Positions 29,928 to 39,540 of a stretch of 64,000 nt of DNA are shown here, in pieces (within the stretch, counting starts at the first letter, position 1; the number at the start of each line of letters is the position of its first letter). Source of the stretch: Spirochaetes bacterium GWF1_51_8 (GTDB taxonomy: Bacteria; Spirochaetota; Brevinematia; Brevinematales; GWF1-51-8); the NCBI GenBank assembly GCA_001829415.1, contig MIBE01000003.1, positions 3,765 to 67,764 on the forward strand. The letters run 5' to 3'. The notes beneath the pieces were generated by a model. The model was not told where the DNA came from. It saw only the letters and a program-made list of their open reading frames with translations, and searched no databases. A program made the position numbers and the translations under genes.

Positions 29928-30962
29928 ATGAAAAATGTTATTCTGCGTAAATCCCGTCTAAACGATTTTATTTCCATCCTCGCGACAATGGAGAAGGTGA
30001 TGGCGCCGGTCGCCAAAGGCCCGAAGCATTTCGCGTTTGAGGAAGTGAAATCGGCTAAGGAAATTTCGCTCAATTACATCCCGACCATTCTGCCCCCGAA
30101 AAAATACTTCATGCCGCAGCACGAGACCCTTCTGGAATACGACACCCGTGAGGGCCAGAAGATGCGCGCGGTGGCCGAAGTGGAGAAGATTGTCCTGTTC
30201 GGGGTGCATACCTGCGATCTCGCGGGGGTGCAATGCCTTAATATCGTGTTCTCCGACCGTCCGAAAGACCTGAACTACCTGATCCGCAAGAACAAGATCG
30301 CGATCATCGGGTTCGAGTGCAATTTCTACTGCGACGAGGACGCAAGTTGCGGACTGATGGGCAACTATCTGCCGAAGGGCGGGTACGATATGTTTTTTAC
30401 CGACATCGGGGACTATTTTTTCGTGCATGTCAATACCCAGCTTGGCGAGGAACTGATGAACAAGACCGGGGTGCATGAAGAGGCGCGGATGGAGCATATG
30501 AACGCGCTCGAGGCGCTGCGTGAGAAGAAAAAGACGATCTTCAAGAACGAGGTCGATGTCGATAAAAACATGATTCCCGAGCTGTTCAAGAAGGGTTTCG
30601 ACAGCAAGGTCTGGGACGATCTCGGCGAACGCTGTATCTCGTGCGGGAACTGTACCAATGTCTGTCCCACCTGCTACTGTTTCGACGTATACGACGATCC
30701 GGACTTCGGGGCCAAGACCGGTAAGCGTATCCGGGTCTGGGACTCCTGCCAGAACGAGCCGTTCGCGAAAGTGGCCGGTGGCGAGAGTTTCCGTTCGCTC
30801 CGTAAGGACAGAAAGCGTCACCGGTTCAACCGGAAGTTCCGTTACCCGGTAGAGCGTTACGGCAAGTTCTTCTGCACCGGGTGCGGACGCTGTACGCGTG
30901 TTTGTATGGCCAGGATAAACCTGAAAGATACTATTAGATCTCTGGCGAAGGAGTATAAATAA
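29928..30962 (+). CDS. hydB: Sulfhydrogenase beta subunit-like 4Fe-4S protein
   Basis: CISCGNCTNVCPTCYCFDV and CTGCGRCTRVCMARINLK; first gene of a BGDA-ordered cluster. Confidence 0.85.
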   Translation: MKNVILRKSRLNDFISILATMEKVMAPVAKGPKHFAFEEVKSAKEISLNYIPTILPPKKYFMPQHETLLEYDTREGQKMRAVAEVEKIVLFGVHTCDLAGVQCLNIVFSDRPKDLNYLIRKNKIAIIGFECNFYCDEDASCGLMGNYLPKGGYDMFFTDIGDYFFVHVNTQLGEELMNKTGVHEEARMEHMNALEALREKKKTIFKNEVDVDKNMIPELFKKGFDSKVWDDLGERCISCGNCTNVCPTCYCFDVYDDPDFGAKTGKRIRVWDSCQNEPFAKVAGGESFRSLRKDRKRHRFNRKFRYPVERYGKFFCTGCGRCTRVCMARINLKDTIRSLAKEYK

Positions 30963-31804
30963 TGGAAAAAATGAATATCAACCGTTCGGCATATAGAATC
31001 AAGGAAGCGAAAATCCTCAGTGCGAGAATGCTGACCGACACTGAAAAGCTGTTCGATATCGCGCTCCAGAACGGCGAAAGCCTCGACTACGAACCGGGAC
31101 AGTTCGCGGAAGTGTCGATTTTCGGGGTAGGCGAAGCGCCTATTTCGATCTGCTCGTCGCCTACGAAACGGGGCTCGTTCGAGCTCTGTGTCCGCGCGGT
31201 GGGCGAAGGCCGTTTCACGAACGCGATGCACAAGATGGAAGCGGGTGACGATATCGGAATCAGAGGCCCGTTCGGGGTAGGCTTCCCGGTGCAGATGTTC
31301 GAGGGGAACGATTTGATGCTGGTCGCCGGAGGGCTGGGGATCGCTCCGCTCCGTTCGCTCATCAACTATGTCCTCGATAACCGCCGCGATTTCGGCAAAG
31401 TAAACATCCTGCTGGGATGTAAAACGCCGCTCAATATGCTTTTCGGCGATGAGATCGAGACATGGCAGACCAGAATGGATATCAACTTCAGTTGTACGGT
31501 GGACAAGGGCGCGCCCGATTGGAAGGGGAATGTCGGATTGATCACATCGCTCATCCCTGGTGTCGACCTCGACCCCGCGAACACCTACGCGGTGGTGGTA
31601 GGCCCGCCCATCATGTATAAATTCGTCATCAAGGAACTGACCGGTAAAAAAATACCCGATAACAGGATACTCGTCTCTCTCGAACGCCACATGAAATGCG
31701 GGCTCGGGAAATGCGGGCATTGCCAGATTCACAATATCTACTGCTGTCAGGACGGGCCCGTGTTCGTCTATGAAAGAATTAAAGACCTGAAGGGGGCGAT
31801 CTGA
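30962..31804 (+). CDS. hydG: Sulfhydrogenase gamma subunit (FAD/NAD(P)-binding)
   Basis: EPGQFAEVSIFGVGEAPISICSSP, LVAGGLGIAPLRSLINYV, MKCGLGKCGHCQI; overlaps neighbours by translational-coupling junctions. This is the sulfhydrogenase gamma subunit, not the FeFe maturase HydG. Confidence 0.88.
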   Translation: MEKMNINRSAYRIKEAKILSARMLTDTEKLFDIALQNGESLDYEPGQFAEVSIFGVGEAPISICSSPTKRGSFELCVRAVGEGRFTNAMHKMEAGDDIGIRGPFGVGFPVQMFEGNDLMLVAGGLGIAPLRSLINYVLDNRRDFGKVNILLGCKTPLNMLFGDEIETWQTRMDINFSCTVDKGAPDWKGNVGLITSLIPGVDLDPANTYAVVVGPPIMYKFVIKELTGKKIPDNRILVSLERHMKCGLGKCGHCQIHNIYCCQDGPVFVYERIKDLKGAI

Positions 31805-32544
31805 TGAGAAAACCAAAAATCGCGTTTTTCGACTTCGCTTGCTGTGAAGGATGCCAGCTGCAGGTAGCTAATCTGGGAGAAGCGCTTCTCGATATTCTGG
31901 AAGCGGTGGATGTGGTGGAATTCCGCGAGGTCATGTCCGAGAAATGGACGCAGAGTTTCGATATCGCGGTGATCGAGGGAAGCATCACGACCCAGCACGC
32001 TGTCGAACGGATTAAAGAGATACGCGGGCGTTCGCAGATACTGATCGCCTACGGCTCGTGCGCCACGATCGGCGGCGTCAACGGTATGAAAAACAACTAC
32101 CCCCTCGAAGATATCCGCCGTTATGTCTACAACGACAACGCCGAGTTCTTCGATACCATTCCCACCCGCGCGGTGCATCAGGTGGTCAACGTCGACTATT
32201 ATGTCAACGGCTGTCCGATCTACCCGCCGGAATTCATCGCGGTGCTCAAGGCCGCGCTCGCGGGACTGCCGTACCATGTCCCGGATAATGCCGTCTGCGT
32301 GGAGTGCAAGCTGAACGAAAATGTCTGCATGTACGAGCGCGGGCTGACCTGTGCCGGGCCGATTACCCGTTCGGGATGCAACTCATGGTGTGTCAATAAC
32401 GGCAACATCTGCTACGGGTGCCGCGGCATGATGTCCAATCCCAACGAAACCGGGTTTCAGGAAGTCCTGAAAAAGTACGATATCACGGTGGACCTCATCA
32501 TGAACAAGATGAACATGTATAATAAATGCCGGGAGATTAAATAA
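31804..32544 (+). CDS. hydD: NiFe hydrogenase small (delta) subunit
   Basis: FACCEGCQLQ, GSITTQHAVE, YGSCATIGG, NGCPIYPPEF, GPITRSGCNSWC. Confidence 0.9.
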   Translation: MRKPKIAFFDFACCEGCQLQVANLGEALLDILEAVDVVEFREVMSEKWTQSFDIAVIEGSITTQHAVERIKEIRGRSQILIAYGSCATIGGVNGMKNNYPLEDIRRYVYNDNAEFFDTIPTRAVHQVVNVDYYVNGCPIYPPEFIAVLKAALAGLPYHVPDNAVCVECKLNENVCMYERGLTCAGPITRSGCNSWCVNNGNICYGCRGMMSNPNETGFQEVLKKYDITVDLIMNKMNMYNKCREIK

Positions 32545-33866
32545 TGGGAAAAAATATAAATATTAACGTGGAATACCTGACCCGTGTAGAGGGTCACGGG
32601 AATATCGTGGTGAATGTGAACGACGGGAAGCTCGAGCAGTGCATGCTGGAGATCGTCGAAAGCCCCCGTTTCTTCGAGGGGATGCTCCGGGGGCGCTCTA
32701 TCTTCGAAGCCCAGCATATCACCTCGCGTATCTGCGGCATCTGCGCCTGCGGCCACACTCTCGCGTCGATACAGGCCGCCGAGGACGCTATCGGCTTCAC
32801 TCCCAGCAAGCAGACTATCGAGTTACGCAAACTGCTCCTGCATTTGGAAAACCTCGACAGCCATATCCTGCATATCTATCTTCTTGTCGCGCCCGACCTT
32901 CTCGGGGTAAAGAGTTTTGTGCCGTTAATCGATTCCCATAATAAAGTAGTCCGCCGTGCGCTTCGGATGAAGAAAACAATCAACGACGTCTGCGACATTC
33001 TTGCCGGGCGGCATATCCACCCGATATCGAGTATTGTCGGAGGGTGGACGAAGCTGCCGAGGGAAAAAGACCTTGACGCGATGCTCGCGCTGTTGACCGG
33101 GATGATTCCCGATATGAACGCGACTGTCGAGCTCGCGGCGTCGCTCAAGTTTCCCGAGTTTCAGCGCGAGACCGAGTATGTGGCGCTGGTCAGCGACGAC
33201 GCCGAGTACCCGCTGCTGATGGGCGATGTCGGTTCCACCGACGGCGTGCGGATGAACAAGAAGGATTATAAGAAGATCACGAACGAATTTATAGTGCCGC
33301 ATTCTTCCGCGAAGCACGCGAAGCTGAGCCGCGCCTCTTACGCGGTGGGCGCTCTCGCGCGTTTCAACCTGAACGCCGGCAAGCTCCGCAAGGAAGCAAA
33401 AGGGATCGCCGACGCTATCGGCCTTAAGCCTATCTGCGTCAATCCCTACCTGAATACCGCCGCTCAGCTTGTCGAATGCGTGCATTGTCTCTATGAAGCG
33501 ATCGACATCCTGACCCGTTTCAAGGAAAAGGGCGTCGACCATTCAGAAGCGATTGTGGTCGGGCTGAACGAGCAGAAGAAGGTCAAGATCAAACCCGGGT
33601 TAGGGGTGGGAGCGGTCGAAGTCCCGCGCGGCATCCTTTTCCACAGCTACGAGGTGGATGAGAAGGGCTTGATTGTCAACGCCAACTGCATCATCCCCAC
33701 CGGGCAGAACTGCAACAATATCGAGCGCGATATGCAGAAGCTCGTCCCCGAGATCATGGAGAAGAAGGAAGAGGAAATCACTCTCGCTCTCGAGATGCTT
33801 GTCCGCGCTTACGACCCGTGCATCTCCTGCTCGGCGCATTTTTTGGATGTAAAATTTGTTAAATAA
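32544..33866 (+). CDS. hydA: NiFe hydrogenase large (alpha) subunit
   Basis: RICGICACGH (L1) and C-terminal DPCISCSAH followed by a short FLDVKFVK extension. Confidence 0.94.
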   Translation: MGKNININVEYLTRVEGHGNIVVNVNDGKLEQCMLEIVESPRFFEGMLRGRSIFEAQHITSRICGICACGHTLASIQAAEDAIGFTPSKQTIELRKLLLHLENLDSHILHIYLLVAPDLLGVKSFVPLIDSHNKVVRRALRMKKTINDVCDILAGRHIHPISSIVGGWTKLPREKDLDAMLALLTGMIPDMNATVELAASLKFPEFQRETEYVALVSDDAEYPLLMGDVGSTDGVRMNKKDYKKITNEFIVPHSSAKHAKLSRASYAVGALARFNLNAGKLRKEAKGIADAIGLKPICVNPYLNTAAQLVECVHCLYEAIDILTRFKEKGVDHSEAIVVGLNEQKKVKIKPGLGVGAVEVPRGILFHSYEVDEKGLIVNANCIIPTGQNCNNIERDMQKLVPEIMEKKEEEITLALEMLVRAYDPCISCSAHFLDVKFVK

Positions 33867-34326
33867 AGAGATCGTCGAATACTTCAAAGACCCCGCGTCG
33901 CCGACACTCATCATCACTGTCGGGAATAACCTGCGTGCCGACGACGGGGCCGGGCCGTATATCGCCTCGAAACTGGAAGAACCGCCCGCCGGGACGCTTG
34001 TGCTCGACGCGGGCGAGAATCCCGAAAACATCGTGGACGACGCCGTGGAGCTTTTCCCCGCACGCGCGGTGATGATCGACGCCGCCGATTTCGGCGGTAC
34101 CCCGGGCGAAGTCCGTTTCATCCCGGACGAACTCATCCCTGATAACCCATTAAGCACGCACGCGTTTCCGCTCCCGGTCATCACGAAGATCATCCGGAAA
34201 GACGCGCGCTGTAATGTCCGTTTCCTCGGGATTCAGGTGAAAACTATCGAGATGGGCGCGGATATGAGTCCCGAAGTGACCGCGGCATCGGACGAGCTTG
34301 TCAAACTGATACTCCGGAAGAAATAA
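33856..34326 (+). CDS. NiFe hydrogenase maturation protease
   Basis: TVGNNLRADDGAGPYIASKL...LVLDAGENPEN...DAADFGGTPGE; HypD/HycI-type endopeptidase pattern; overlaps hydA. Confidence 0.9.
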   Translation: MLNKEIVEYFKDPASPTLIITVGNNLRADDGAGPYIASKLEEPPAGTLVLDAGENPENIVDDAVELFPARAVMIDAADFGGTPGEVRFIPDELIPDNPLSTHAFPLPVITKIIRKDARCNVRFLGIQVKTIEMGADMSPEVTAASDELVKLILRKK

Positions 34327-34406: not shown

Positions 34407-35705
34407 ATGTGTTACGCCATACCCGGCAGGGTTGAAACAATCGAAGACCGGTATGTGACGGTCGATTATTTCGGCGAGAAGAAGCGCGCGATCAACGAGC
34501 TCGACGGGCTGAAAATCGGCGACTATATCTACGCCCAGGGCGGTTTTGTGATCCAGAGCCTGCCCGAGCCCGAGGCGAAATCGATCCTCGCGGTCTGGAA
34601 GGAGACGTTCTTCGAGCTTCAGGAAATGGACTTACGGCTTTCGCGGCTGGATACGGAGTCGAAGGGTGTCGACGCGAAGACCCTCAGAATACTCGATAAA
34701 GCCGCCGAGGGACGCGAGTTGAAACCCGAAGAGCTGTACCATCTGATTACCCTCGAAACCCCCTACGAACGCGAACTGCTCTATAAGACCGCGAACTTTC
34801 TGAGGCGGAAGTACCTCGGCAACTCATGCTGTGTTCACGGCATTATCGAGTTCTCGTCCTTCTGCAAACGGAATTGTCATTACTGCGGAATATCGACCAA
34901 TCATACAGGCTTGAAACGTTATAGGATGACCGACGACGAAATCCTCGACGCCGTCCGCGAGGCGGTGGAGGTGCACGGCTTTCAGGCGCTCGTGCTCCAG
35001 TCCGGCGAAGACCCGGAGTTTTCCGCGCCGAAGCTCGCGGAACTGATCCGTGAAATCAAACGGCGGCACCATTGCCTGATCTTCATCAGCGTGGGCGAGA
35101 TCGGTATCGACGGGCTGAAGGAACTGTACGACGCGGGCGCGCGGGGTATCCTGCTCCGTTTCGAGACGTCCGACCCCGAACTCTACGCGAAACTTCACCC
35201 CGGCTCATTGCTGGAAACGCGCCTCGAGCATCTCAGGAAGGCGTTCGAAATAGGCTACCTGATTGTGACAGGCGGACTGATCGGGCTTCCCGGGCAGACC
35301 CCGCGCGATATCCTGAACGACATCCTGCTCGCGAAGGAGCTTCACGCCGAGATGTTCAGCTTCGGCCCGTTCGTCCCCCATCCCGATACCCCGCTTGCCG
35401 GGAACAATACCCCGGATGTCGAACTGATCCTCGGAACGCTTGCCGCCGCGCGTATCGCCGATCCCGAGAACGCAAAGATTCTCGTGACGACGGCGTTCGA
35501 GACTGTCGATCCCGGCGCGCGGGAGAAGGGCTTGATGGCGGGCGCGAACTCGGTGATGCTGAACGTGACACCGGAGCGTTTCAGGGAGTGCTACGAGATT
35601 TACCCGAACAGGGCACATTCTCACGAGGGCATACCCGAGCAGATCGAGACGACCCTCTCGTTACTGCGGGGACTCGGCCGCGCTCCGACTGACTTGGGTG
35701 TTTAG
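34407..35705 (+). CDS. HypC-like domain fused to HydE-like radical SAM protein
   Basis: N-terminus MCYAIPGRVETIEDRYVTVDYFGEKKRAINELDGLKIGDYIYAQGGFVIQSL (HypC/HupF pattern); then FSSFCKRNCHYCGI (radical SAM CX3CX2C) and HydE-like VLQSGEDPEF, GGLIGLPGQT, NVTPERFRECYEIYP. Confidence 0.85.
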   Translation: MCYAIPGRVETIEDRYVTVDYFGEKKRAINELDGLKIGDYIYAQGGFVIQSLPEPEAKSILAVWKETFFELQEMDLRLSRLDTESKGVDAKTLRILDKAAEGRELKPEELYHLITLETPYERELLYKTANFLRRKYLGNSCCVHGIIEFSSFCKRNCHYCGISTNHTGLKRYRMTDDEILDAVREAVEVHGFQALVLQSGEDPEFSAPKLAELIREIKRRHHCLIFISVGEIGIDGLKELYDAGARGILLRFETSDPELYAKLHPGSLLETRLEHLRKAFEIGYLIVTGGLIGLPGQTPRDILNDILLAKELHAEMFSFGPFVPHPDTPLAGNNTPDVELILGTLAAARIADPENAKILVTTAFETVDPGAREKGLMAGANSVMLNVTPERFRECYEIYPNRAHSHEGIPEQIETTLSLLRGLGRAPTDLGV

Positions 35706-37807: not shown

Positions 37808-38004
37808 ACGAATTCCTGAAGTTAATTGGATACTATTATAGTATGGTTTTATAGTATTTTCAAATTTCGGATTTCACGATTATATTGCACGGCGTAACAA
37901 GTTTGTGAAATTGATATATAATCCTCGCCGAGATAAAGACGAAATCTTGCTTTTCCCCGAAAATATGGTATCCTTATAATAAGGTGAAAAAGATGGAGGC
38001 GGGT

Positions 38005-39540
38005 ATGAAACGTCTTATTCGTATTTTGTGGGTGTTATTCACGGTCATTCTCGTCCCGGTGTTCGCGGAGGCCAAGGTTCTCAAGGCCCTGCTGATCATC
38101 CAGGACAACTATATCGACAATAACCTGAACGGGATCGCGGAAGATGTCCGGCTCGATCTCGGGCATGTCCAGTCGTTCCTCAACGGCCTCCAGAAGGGCA
38201 AGGTCATCGATGTCGAAATCACTATCCTGAAGGGAAAGAACGCGACCTATGCGAATATGGATAAGCTCCTGAAAAATGTCGAAACCGAGAAGGACGACGT
38301 GATCCTTTTCTATTTCAGCGGGCACGGCGGGATGGAGAAGGATAAGACCTTCCTGTTTACCGCCGACTCGAAGAAGTTCTGGCGTGACGATGTCGAAAAG
38401 TATCTCAAGTCCAAGTCGGCCAAACTCAAGATCGCGGTCTCCGACGCGTGCAGCAGTTCCATCGGCGGGATGGATTCACGCGGATGGTTCGAGGATGACG
38501 GCGAACTCGAAGAGAAGCAGAACGCCTATATCGAAATCTATAAAAACCTTTTCCTGAACTACGAAGGTCTTCTCTATGTCACTTCCGCGAGTCCCGGCGA
38601 GTACGCATGGGGATTCGGGAGCGGCGGGTCGTTCACAGTCTCGTTCTTCAACGAAGTCCTCTATAACGATCCAAAGTTTACATGGGAAGAGACTATCGCC
38701 GACGCACAGCAGTTGACGCAGGAGAAATTTACCTACATGGTCAATATGGGAAATTTCCCCGACTCGATGAAAAAGGACCTGAAGAAAAAAGGGATCACCG
38801 GACAGCACCCGTACATCTATTCGATGGCGAGCTCTATCGATAAAAACGCTGAACCCGTGACGCCTATCGTGCCCGACTCCGGTGGAAAGGACGGCGATAT
38901 AATCGTCCGTAACGATACTAAGAAATCGCTGACATTTTTTGTCGATAAGAATACCAAGTACGACGATAGCTGGGCATGGAAGAACGTCGAGACCTTCTTT
39001 ATCCCCGCCGGGGAATCGGTCTCGATGAAGTCGTCCAAGGCACTCCTCGTGTTCTTCAAGCAGGACCGTGAGAAATATGTTTCCTACTCGCTCAAACCCG
39101 GGAAGTACGCCTTCTCGTTAAATCAGAAGAAGCTGATCGATCTCTATACCGATACCGCCGGGAAGGAATCCAAGAAATCTTCCGCGAAGATGAACCCGAT
39201 CCTCGGAAAATGGATTTGGGATATGTGGACTGTCGACGATATCAATAAAGGAAGCAAGTCGAAAAGCGGTGTGACCTACATTATCGAGTTCAAGGCCGAC
39301 AACAGTTTTATCATCACCGATATGAAGGGTAAAAAGTCGGAATGGGGTAAATGGAATATCGATCTTGTTTCCGGCGCCGAATATCTGGATATTGCCGCCG
39401 ATGACGGCAAGACAAAGACCAGTCTCCAGATGAAAGTGACTTTCCTGAAAAACTCGTATGTTCAGCTCGTCCCGACGATGGTCAACGGGGAGAAGAAGAG
39501 CACTGACGATATGCCGCAGGTATTTTTATACAAACAGTAA
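38005..39540 (+). CDS. Secreted caspase-fold (C14-like) peptidase with C-terminal lipocalin-like domain
   Basis: Signal peptide MKRLIRILWVLFTVILVPVFAEA; His motif ILFYFSGHGGMEKDK; Cys motif IAVSDACSSSIGG. ATG 38005 preceded by ggagg. Confidence 0.85.
   Translation: MKRLIRILWVLFTVILVPVFAEAKVLKALLIIQDNYIDNNLNGIAEDVRLDLGHVQSFLNGLQKGKVIDVEITILKGKNATYANMDKLLKNVETEKDDVILFYFSGHGGMEKDKTFLFTADSKKFWRDDVEKYLKSKSAKLKIAVSDACSSSIGGMDSRGWFEDDGELEEKQNAYIEIYKNLFLNYEGLLYVTSASPGEYAWGFGSGGSFTVSFFNEVLYNDPKFTWEETIADAQQLTQEKFTYMVNMGNFPDSMKKDLKKKGITGQHPYIYSMASSIDKNAEPVTPIVPDSGGKDGDIIVRNDTKKSLTFFVDKNTKYDDSWAWKNVETFFIPAGESVSMKSSKALLVFFKQDREKYVSYSLKPGKYAFSLNQKKLIDLYTDTAGKESKKSSAKMNPILGKWIWDMWTVDDINKGSKSKSGVTYIIEFKADNSFIITDMKGKKSEWGKWNIDLVSGAEYLDIAADDGKTKTSLQMKVTFLKNSYVQLVPTMVNGEKKSTDDMPQVFLYKQ

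Follow-up and report, generated by a model that had tools for sequence, protein, structure and literature searches.

The window, i.e. the whole stretch of 64,000 nucleotides that was analysed, comes from the Brevinematales-type spirochaete GWF1_51_8, whose genome (3.54 Mb, 77 contigs) is 93.5% complete. It carries a group 3b-like NiFe hydrogenase operon (Table 1), the last gene of which encodes a fusion of HypC with a HydE-like radical SAM protein. An earlier note on this DNA had placed the fusion behind hydBGDA and a maturation protease, and this is borne out by the assignment of sulfhydrogenase-type beta, gamma, delta and alpha subunits and of a HycI-type protease. The gamma subunit is the "HydG" of the sulfhydrogenases and is distinct from the maturase HydG, which is meant by this name hereafter. 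The motifs of the alpha subunit are intact (RICGIC...H, PRG and DPCISCSAH), and the protein ends in a short cleavable tail. Downstream of the operon, at positions 37984-39540 of the forward strand, the window also encodes a 518-aa protein that resembles caspases (peptidase C14), as judged by eye from its sequence.

Table 1. The hydrogenase operon and the parts of its terminal fusion gene, in positions of the window
Feature	Position	Strand	Basis and remarks
Hydrogenase beta subunit (Fe-S, HydB/ShyB type)	29928..30962	+	NF040833/NF040829, PF17179
Hydrogenase gamma subunit (NAD(P)/FAD reductase)	30962..31804	+	PF00175, PF10418, PF00970; NF006220
Hydrogenase delta (small) subunit	31804..32544	+	PF01058; NF040831
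NiFe large (alpha) subunit, group 3b-like	32544..33866	+	PF00374, NF040832; motifs
HycI-type maturation protease	33856..34326	+	PF01750; TIGR00142/TIGR00072
HypC-HydE fusion gene	34407..35705	+	one uninterrupted ORF, 432 aa; both domains by Pfam/NCBIfam
HypC/HupF domain	34407..34598	+	residues 1-64; PF01455 match; Met1-Cys2 kept
HydE-like radical SAM (TIM barrel) domain	34689..35687	+	residues about 95-427; TIGR03956, T. maritima HydE match, Foldseek
Cys141-Cys142-x-His144	34827..34838	+	fusion-specific invariant motif; candidate second iron site
Radical SAM cluster motif C153-x3-C157-x2-C160	34863..34886	+	invariant in fusions and canonical HydE

The ATG of the fusion gene is directly preceded by ggagg, a good ribosome site, and the product begins with MCYAIPGRV. 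In Pfam, HupF_HypC matched residues 1-64 above its cut-off (E 2e-11) and Radical_SAM matched residues 147-306 (E 1e-20). The top NCBIfam model, by a wide margin, was TIGR03956 (HydE), which scored 251.0 bits on residues 96-407 and narrowly missed its equivalog cut-off of 254.6; some other members of the family exceed this value (e.g. L178, 322 bits). The HypC subfamily model TIGR00074 remained below its cut-off (38.7 versus 48 bits), and the HmdB model reached 52 bits for a cut-off of 320.9. The best solved relative by sequence was T. maritima HydE (residues 95-427, E 2e-71), followed by PylB and BioB, and HypC chains of solved structures matched the N-terminus. The predicted fold of the protein (pLDDT 91.9, pTM 0.91) was found by Foldseek to be closest to T. 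maritima HydE, with an rmsd of 1.5 Å and a TM score of 0.93 on the target. Pfam, NCBIfam and the fold thus agree with the earlier reading of a single 432-aa frame in which a HypC N-terminus continues into a full HydE-like domain.

When the N-terminal 165 residues were used to search 85,488 species genomes, 172 relatives were obtained, of which the best 80 were kept. These 80 were from Omnitrophota, Margulisbacteria/WOR-1/Saganbacteria, Elusimicrobia, Brevinematales, Ozemobacteraceae, Auribacterota, Deltaproteobacteria, WOR-3 and Scalindua. Full-length copies of the fusion number at least 60, in Spirochaetota, Omnitrophota, Margulisbacteria/WOR-1, Elusimicrobiota and further groups. The same architecture, which the earlier note had proposed to look for elsewhere, was present in 60 of 60 full-length homologues, all with both domains. 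The fusion is therefore not an assembly artefact, and an error joining two separate genes is out, the same join recurring in many phyla.

Within Spirochaetota, HypC was matched in 70 of 298 genomes, 64 times as a short stand-alone frame and six times as a fusion frame of 437-459 aa. In all six genomes of the latter kind, the fusion is the sole HypC. HypD was found in none of these six, whereas it was present in all seven spirochaete genomes with a stand-alone HypC that served for comparison; the same distribution, 0/6 versus 7/7, was obtained for HypE and for HypF above cut-off. For one gene, the probability of such a split by chance is 1 in 1716 (hand calculation). The genome of the window follows this pattern: the fusion is its only HypC match and HypD gave no match. 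Of a separate hypC and a hypABDEF set, for which a check had been suggested, there is thus no hypC, no HypD and neither HypE nor HypF above cut-off, while HypA and HypB are present. Contig 32 (G000:C32) encodes another NiFe large subunit, of the Ech/group 4 kind, with HypA and HypB alongside; these two genes are kept beside Ech-type hydrogenase genes in related genomes as well, and the spirochaete genomes carry both HypA and HypB at full length and not the mini-HypA described below. NiFe large subunits were detected in 6/6 fusion genomes and in 0/5 relatives with neither form of HypC.

The loss of HypD extends beyond the phylum. Among 48 further fusion genomes it is missing in 46, the two exceptions being both labelled Deltaproteobacteria, so that 52 of the 54 fusion genomes searched lack it; HypE and HypF were searched in the six spirochaetes, in one gapped Omnitrophota record and in part of one WOR-1 genome. 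Could these absences be an artefact of incomplete assemblies? Nearly all the genomes are MAGs, and CP070797, deposited as a chromosome, contains 173 gaps of 100 N. However, the six spirochaete fusion genomes are 87-99% complete, comparable to the stand-alone relatives, all seven of which had each gene, and HypD is also absent from the single-contig WOR-1 genome G300 (record titled curated_complete). We thus consider an artefact extremely improbable. The related possibility that HypDEF were merely missed was rejected as far as it can be tested, on the 0/6 versus 7/7 counts in Spirochaetota and on the 2/48 found for HypD elsewhere.

The same absences bear on the repair of an existing NiFe cofactor, offered in the earlier note as an alternative to its assembly. 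The HypC domain and the operon position would fit a protein that repairs or adjusts the cofactor too, but no builder would be left, HypD missing in 52/54 genomes and HypE and HypF in all six spirochaetes examined. Nothing in the data supports repair, which we hold to be highly unlikely.

At G000:C74:29717-30808, and in relatives, a product of about 530 aa is encoded that is similar to the C-terminal (Kae1-like) half of HypF and scores about 125 bits. Such proteins occur in 4/6 fusion genomes and also in relatives without a NiFe hydrogenase; for this reason, they were set aside as a source of cyanide.

The distribution of the [FeFe] maturases was then compared with that of the fusion. HydG (above cut-off) and HydF are present in 6/6 spirochaete fusion genomes. 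HydG is also found in most relatives without NiFe enzymes, and its presence therefore proves little within Spirochaetota alone. The earlier note had seen neither HydF nor an [FeFe]-type HydG; this holds for the window but not for the genome, in which HydG (450 bits) and HydF (563 bits) are encoded on contigs other than that of the fusion, together with a separate canonical HydE above cut-off (335 bits). The fusion is thus not simply the HydE of this genome. Because HydG coexists here with HydF and a canonical HydE, on another contig, the inference that it serves the NiFe enzyme is drawn from other lineages. Among the 48 further fusion genomes, HydG scored above cut-off in 44, and HydF in only 12, with one more in which HydF is split over two contigs. 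It had been suggested to look for the fusion in genomes devoid of HydF and HydG: HydF is indeed mostly absent, but HydG is nearly always there. According to the tables for the 48 genomes, at least 32 carry the fusion and HydG while lacking both HypD and HydF. Since the H-cluster cannot mature without HydF (PMC12752695), HydG must serve, in these at least 32 genomes, something other than an [FeFe] hydrogenase made by the known route. The absence of HypD, HypE and HypF is more telling than the absences to which the earlier note had drawn attention. Omnitrophota MAGs have been reported with a single hydrogenase each, NiFe or [FeFe] (PMC8542988). A few fusion genomes, namely L124, L129, L131 and related Omnitrophota that are positive for HydF, retain both machineries; next to the NiFe operon of L124, which carries the fusion, are a HydF fragment, HydG and a canonical HydE.

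In a tree of HydE domains, 40 fusion domains fell together in a single branch (SH-aLRT 99), separate from 17 canonical HydE including that of this genome; the tree was made by a quick method and its BioB outgroup sits on a long branch. The earlier note had named, as evidence against its reading, an [FeFe]-type setting combined with a grouping among canonical HydE. HydF and HydG do lie elsewhere in the genome, but the fusion and canonical HydE branch separately, and HydF is absent from most other fusion genomes. These data also bear on the view that the fusion is an [FeFe] HydE which acquired HypC by chance or for regulation, NiFe maturation being carried out by unrecognised stand-ins for HypD, HypE and HypF. 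It is a clear HydE homologue, and HydF and HydG accompany it in all six spirochaete genomes, as this view would have it. Against this, a separate canonical HydE is available in this genome, the fusion sits in NiFe operons and provides the only HypC, most fusion genomes have no HydF, and Cys2 of the HypC part is invariant (69/69 fusions, as in 24/24 stand-alone HypC). Such an origin is therefore very unlikely. The HydGs of fusion loci fell into several branches mixed with H-cluster HydGs, with no clean split by HydF status, which suggests that HydG was probably recruited more than once. The HydG of GWF1_51_8 branched with operon-linked HydGs of Omnitrophota and Elusimicrobia, and nearly all HydGs from fusion loci keep the C-terminal cluster motif.

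The residues of the two domains were examined by alignment. The position of E. coli H51 is His in 24/24 stand-alone HypC and Gln in 68/69 fusions (here Gln44). In E. coli, this His helps HypC to bind HypD (PMC9002611), and its replacement is consistent with a HypC that has lost its contact with HypD. The HydE part shares 44 columns with canonical HydE, including the cluster cysteines, and core residues are kept: R251, E253, R272, T361-T362, M384 and the lid Y396-x2-Y399. The motif C141-C142-x-H144 is invariant in 60 fusions, whereas canonical HydE has V, Y/H and an invariant R at these positions; the T. maritima chain numbering used in the alignment is, we assume, 10 above the native numbering. 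In the predicted model, the motif is located at the start of barrel strand 1 (residues 140-148), and hence at the barrel end away from the SAM cluster. Since the second iron site of HydG is at the bottom of the barrel (PMC6212873), the motif could, by likeness, be a docking site for iron.

The fusion loci display a recurring gene order, hydB-hydG(gamma)-hydD-hydA-protease-fusion, often with a HypA-like gene of 80 aa directly before the fusion and the maturase HydG after it. This mini-HypA (about 80 aa) directly precedes the fusion in 34 loci (e.g. L161:5566-5805 and L178:9755-9994) and matches positions 1-69 of the 112 of PF01155, so that the zinc-binding part is missing. Of the 53 loci with enough sequence downstream, 27 have HydG on the same strand at a distance of at most 2 kb, and of the 39 with enough sequence upstream, 29 have a NiFe large subunit no more than 9.5 kb away; group 4-type operons carry the fusion as well. 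In Omnitrophota bin140 (CP070797, L178:10001-12763), HypC, HydE and HydG are joined in one protein of 921 aa, the single example so far, in which the HydE part (322 bits) and the HydG part (489 bits) both exceed their equivalog cut-offs. The gene is preceded by a HycI protease and an 80-aa HypA in an Mrp/Mbh-type group 4 operon, and is itself free of N. HypB, HypD, HypE, HypF, HydF and the [FeFe] motif set were sought in this gapped record (CP070797.1, G298) and none was found; given the 173 gaps, these absences call for care and are used as supporting evidence. Two further genes were observed at fusion loci. The redox regulator Rex is encoded between the fusion and HydG in 24 records (e.g. 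L110:6105-6734), which suggests an expression controlled by NADH, and L133:12757-13014 is an 85-aa gene with only the C-terminal cluster domain of HydF, directly after HydG in the fusion operon.

In the [FeFe] pathway, HydG uses two tyrosines to produce Fe(II)(Cys)(CN)(CO)2 and transfers it straight to HydE, where reaction with a SAM-derived radical yields an Fe(I) species (PMC12752695). HypC, on its side, can bring the large subunit an Fe(CN)2CO bound at Cys2 (PMC11565642). With a HydE barrel attached to HypC, the hand-over from HydG to HydE and that from HypC to the large subunit meet in one protein, and the triple fusion adds the source of CO and CN. Comparative genomics strongly supports the earlier proposal that a HydE-like enzyme has been recruited, by way of its own HypC module, to assemble the NiFe cofactor. 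The fusion is probably the central maturase of a hybrid route in which the iron half of the NiFe site is built without HypD, HypE and HypF and is fed by HydG, its likely partner. We infer the chemical steps, the hand-over path and the route to the final ligands as follows. HydG would cleave tyrosine to give an Fe(CO)2(CN)(Cys) unit; the HydE-like domain would accept this unit, or a similar one, and, with the help of SAM, remove the cysteine, rearrange the ligands or do both. The resulting iron-carbonyl-cyanide fragment would then pass to Cys2 of the attached HypC, perhaps via the Cys-Cys-x-His site, and the HypC domain would dock on the large-subunit precursor and deliver it. HypA and HypB would then add nickel and HycI would trim the tail. 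Along the way, one CO would be exchanged for CN.

This exchange counts against the route: the known product of HydG bears two CO and a single CN, the reverse of the NiFe site with its two CN and one CO, so that an extra step is needed. The ligand pocket of the large subunits was searched for a change that would signal another ligand set, and none was seen: both CxxC pairs, PRG and the PT.QN segment (3b type) are kept, as in a relative with normal Hyp genes. Since these residues are unchanged, the mature enzyme probably carries the ordinary Fe(CN)2CO. Taken to its extreme, the proposal would have the HydG unit inserted almost as made, giving a non-standard Fe(CN)(CO)2 site, which for the same reason is less likely than Fe(CN)2CO.

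Also counted against a supply by HydG are the four of 48 fusion genomes without HydG above cut-off and the frequency of HydG in these anaerobes, including relatives without a NiFe hydrogenase. Both would be expected if the HydE-like domain itself made CO and/or CN, or activated another precursor, the fusion still replacing HypDEF and HydG being coincidental; the CCxH motif, which the fusion has for itself, points in the same direction. However, at least 32 fusion genomes have HydG and no HydF, HydG often adjoins the fusion and is once fused to it, and to our knowledge no enzyme of the HydE fold releases CO or CN. We thus regard self-made ligands as improbable and favour HydG as the source. It is likely, on the whole, that a third hydrogenase-cofactor pathway delivers tyrosine-derived CO and CN from HydG to NiFe hydrogenases via HypC-HydE, without HypDEF and HydF.

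If this is true, two maturation chemistries thought to be separate would be joined, across lineages, and a small gene set (the fusion or triple fusion with HydG, HypA and a protease) could serve to make NiFe hydrogenases in other hosts. Confirmation of the chemistry would establish the third pathway. As a rule for annotation, a hydrogenase of Omnitrophota, WOR-1, Elusimicrobiota or Brevinematales should not be taken for inactive on the sole ground that hyp genes are missing.

No description of the HypC-HydE fusion or of the accompanying loss of HypDEF was found in the literature searched, subscription papers and preprints lying outside the search. The component families are known; their combination and the linked loss of HypDEF are apparently new, and the system lacks defining features of both known pathways. 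HmdB of the [Fe]-hydrogenase is likewise a radical SAM relative of HydE and BioB serving a hydrogenase cofactor, but the cofactor and the organisms are others and the fusion scores far below its cut-off. HypX is similarly an added enzyme, which gives a diatomic ligand (formyl-THF-derived CO) to aerobic NiFe hydrogenases; it acts alongside HypCDEF and is no radical SAM enzyme (PMC11565642), and is in both respects unlike the fusion. The operon-linked HydGs resemble those of [FeFe] systems in being well above the HydG cut-off and in nearly all keeping the C-terminal cluster motif, and they differ in being linked or fused to HypC-HydE and a NiFe hydrogenase, often in the absence of HydF. With T. 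maritima HydE (PDB 3CIW/7O1O), the fusion shares the fold (rmsd 1.5 Å, about 39% identity), the cluster, the lid YxxY, the TT pair and the Met. It has, however, an N-terminal HypC, a clade of its own, a place in a NiFe operon and usually no HydF, carries CCxH where HydE has V-x-x-R, and has Gly in place of the invariant HydE Arg (chain position 165). With the Hyp pathway (HypABCDEF), it has in common the client enzymes, a HypC with invariant Met-Cys2, the HypA/HypB nickel arm and a HycI-type protease. It differs by the absence of HypD (52/54 genomes) and of HypE and HypF (all six examined), by a HypC joined to a radical SAM domain in which the HypD-binding His is Gln, and by its predicted source of CN, which would be tyrosine via HydG instead of carbamoyl phosphate.
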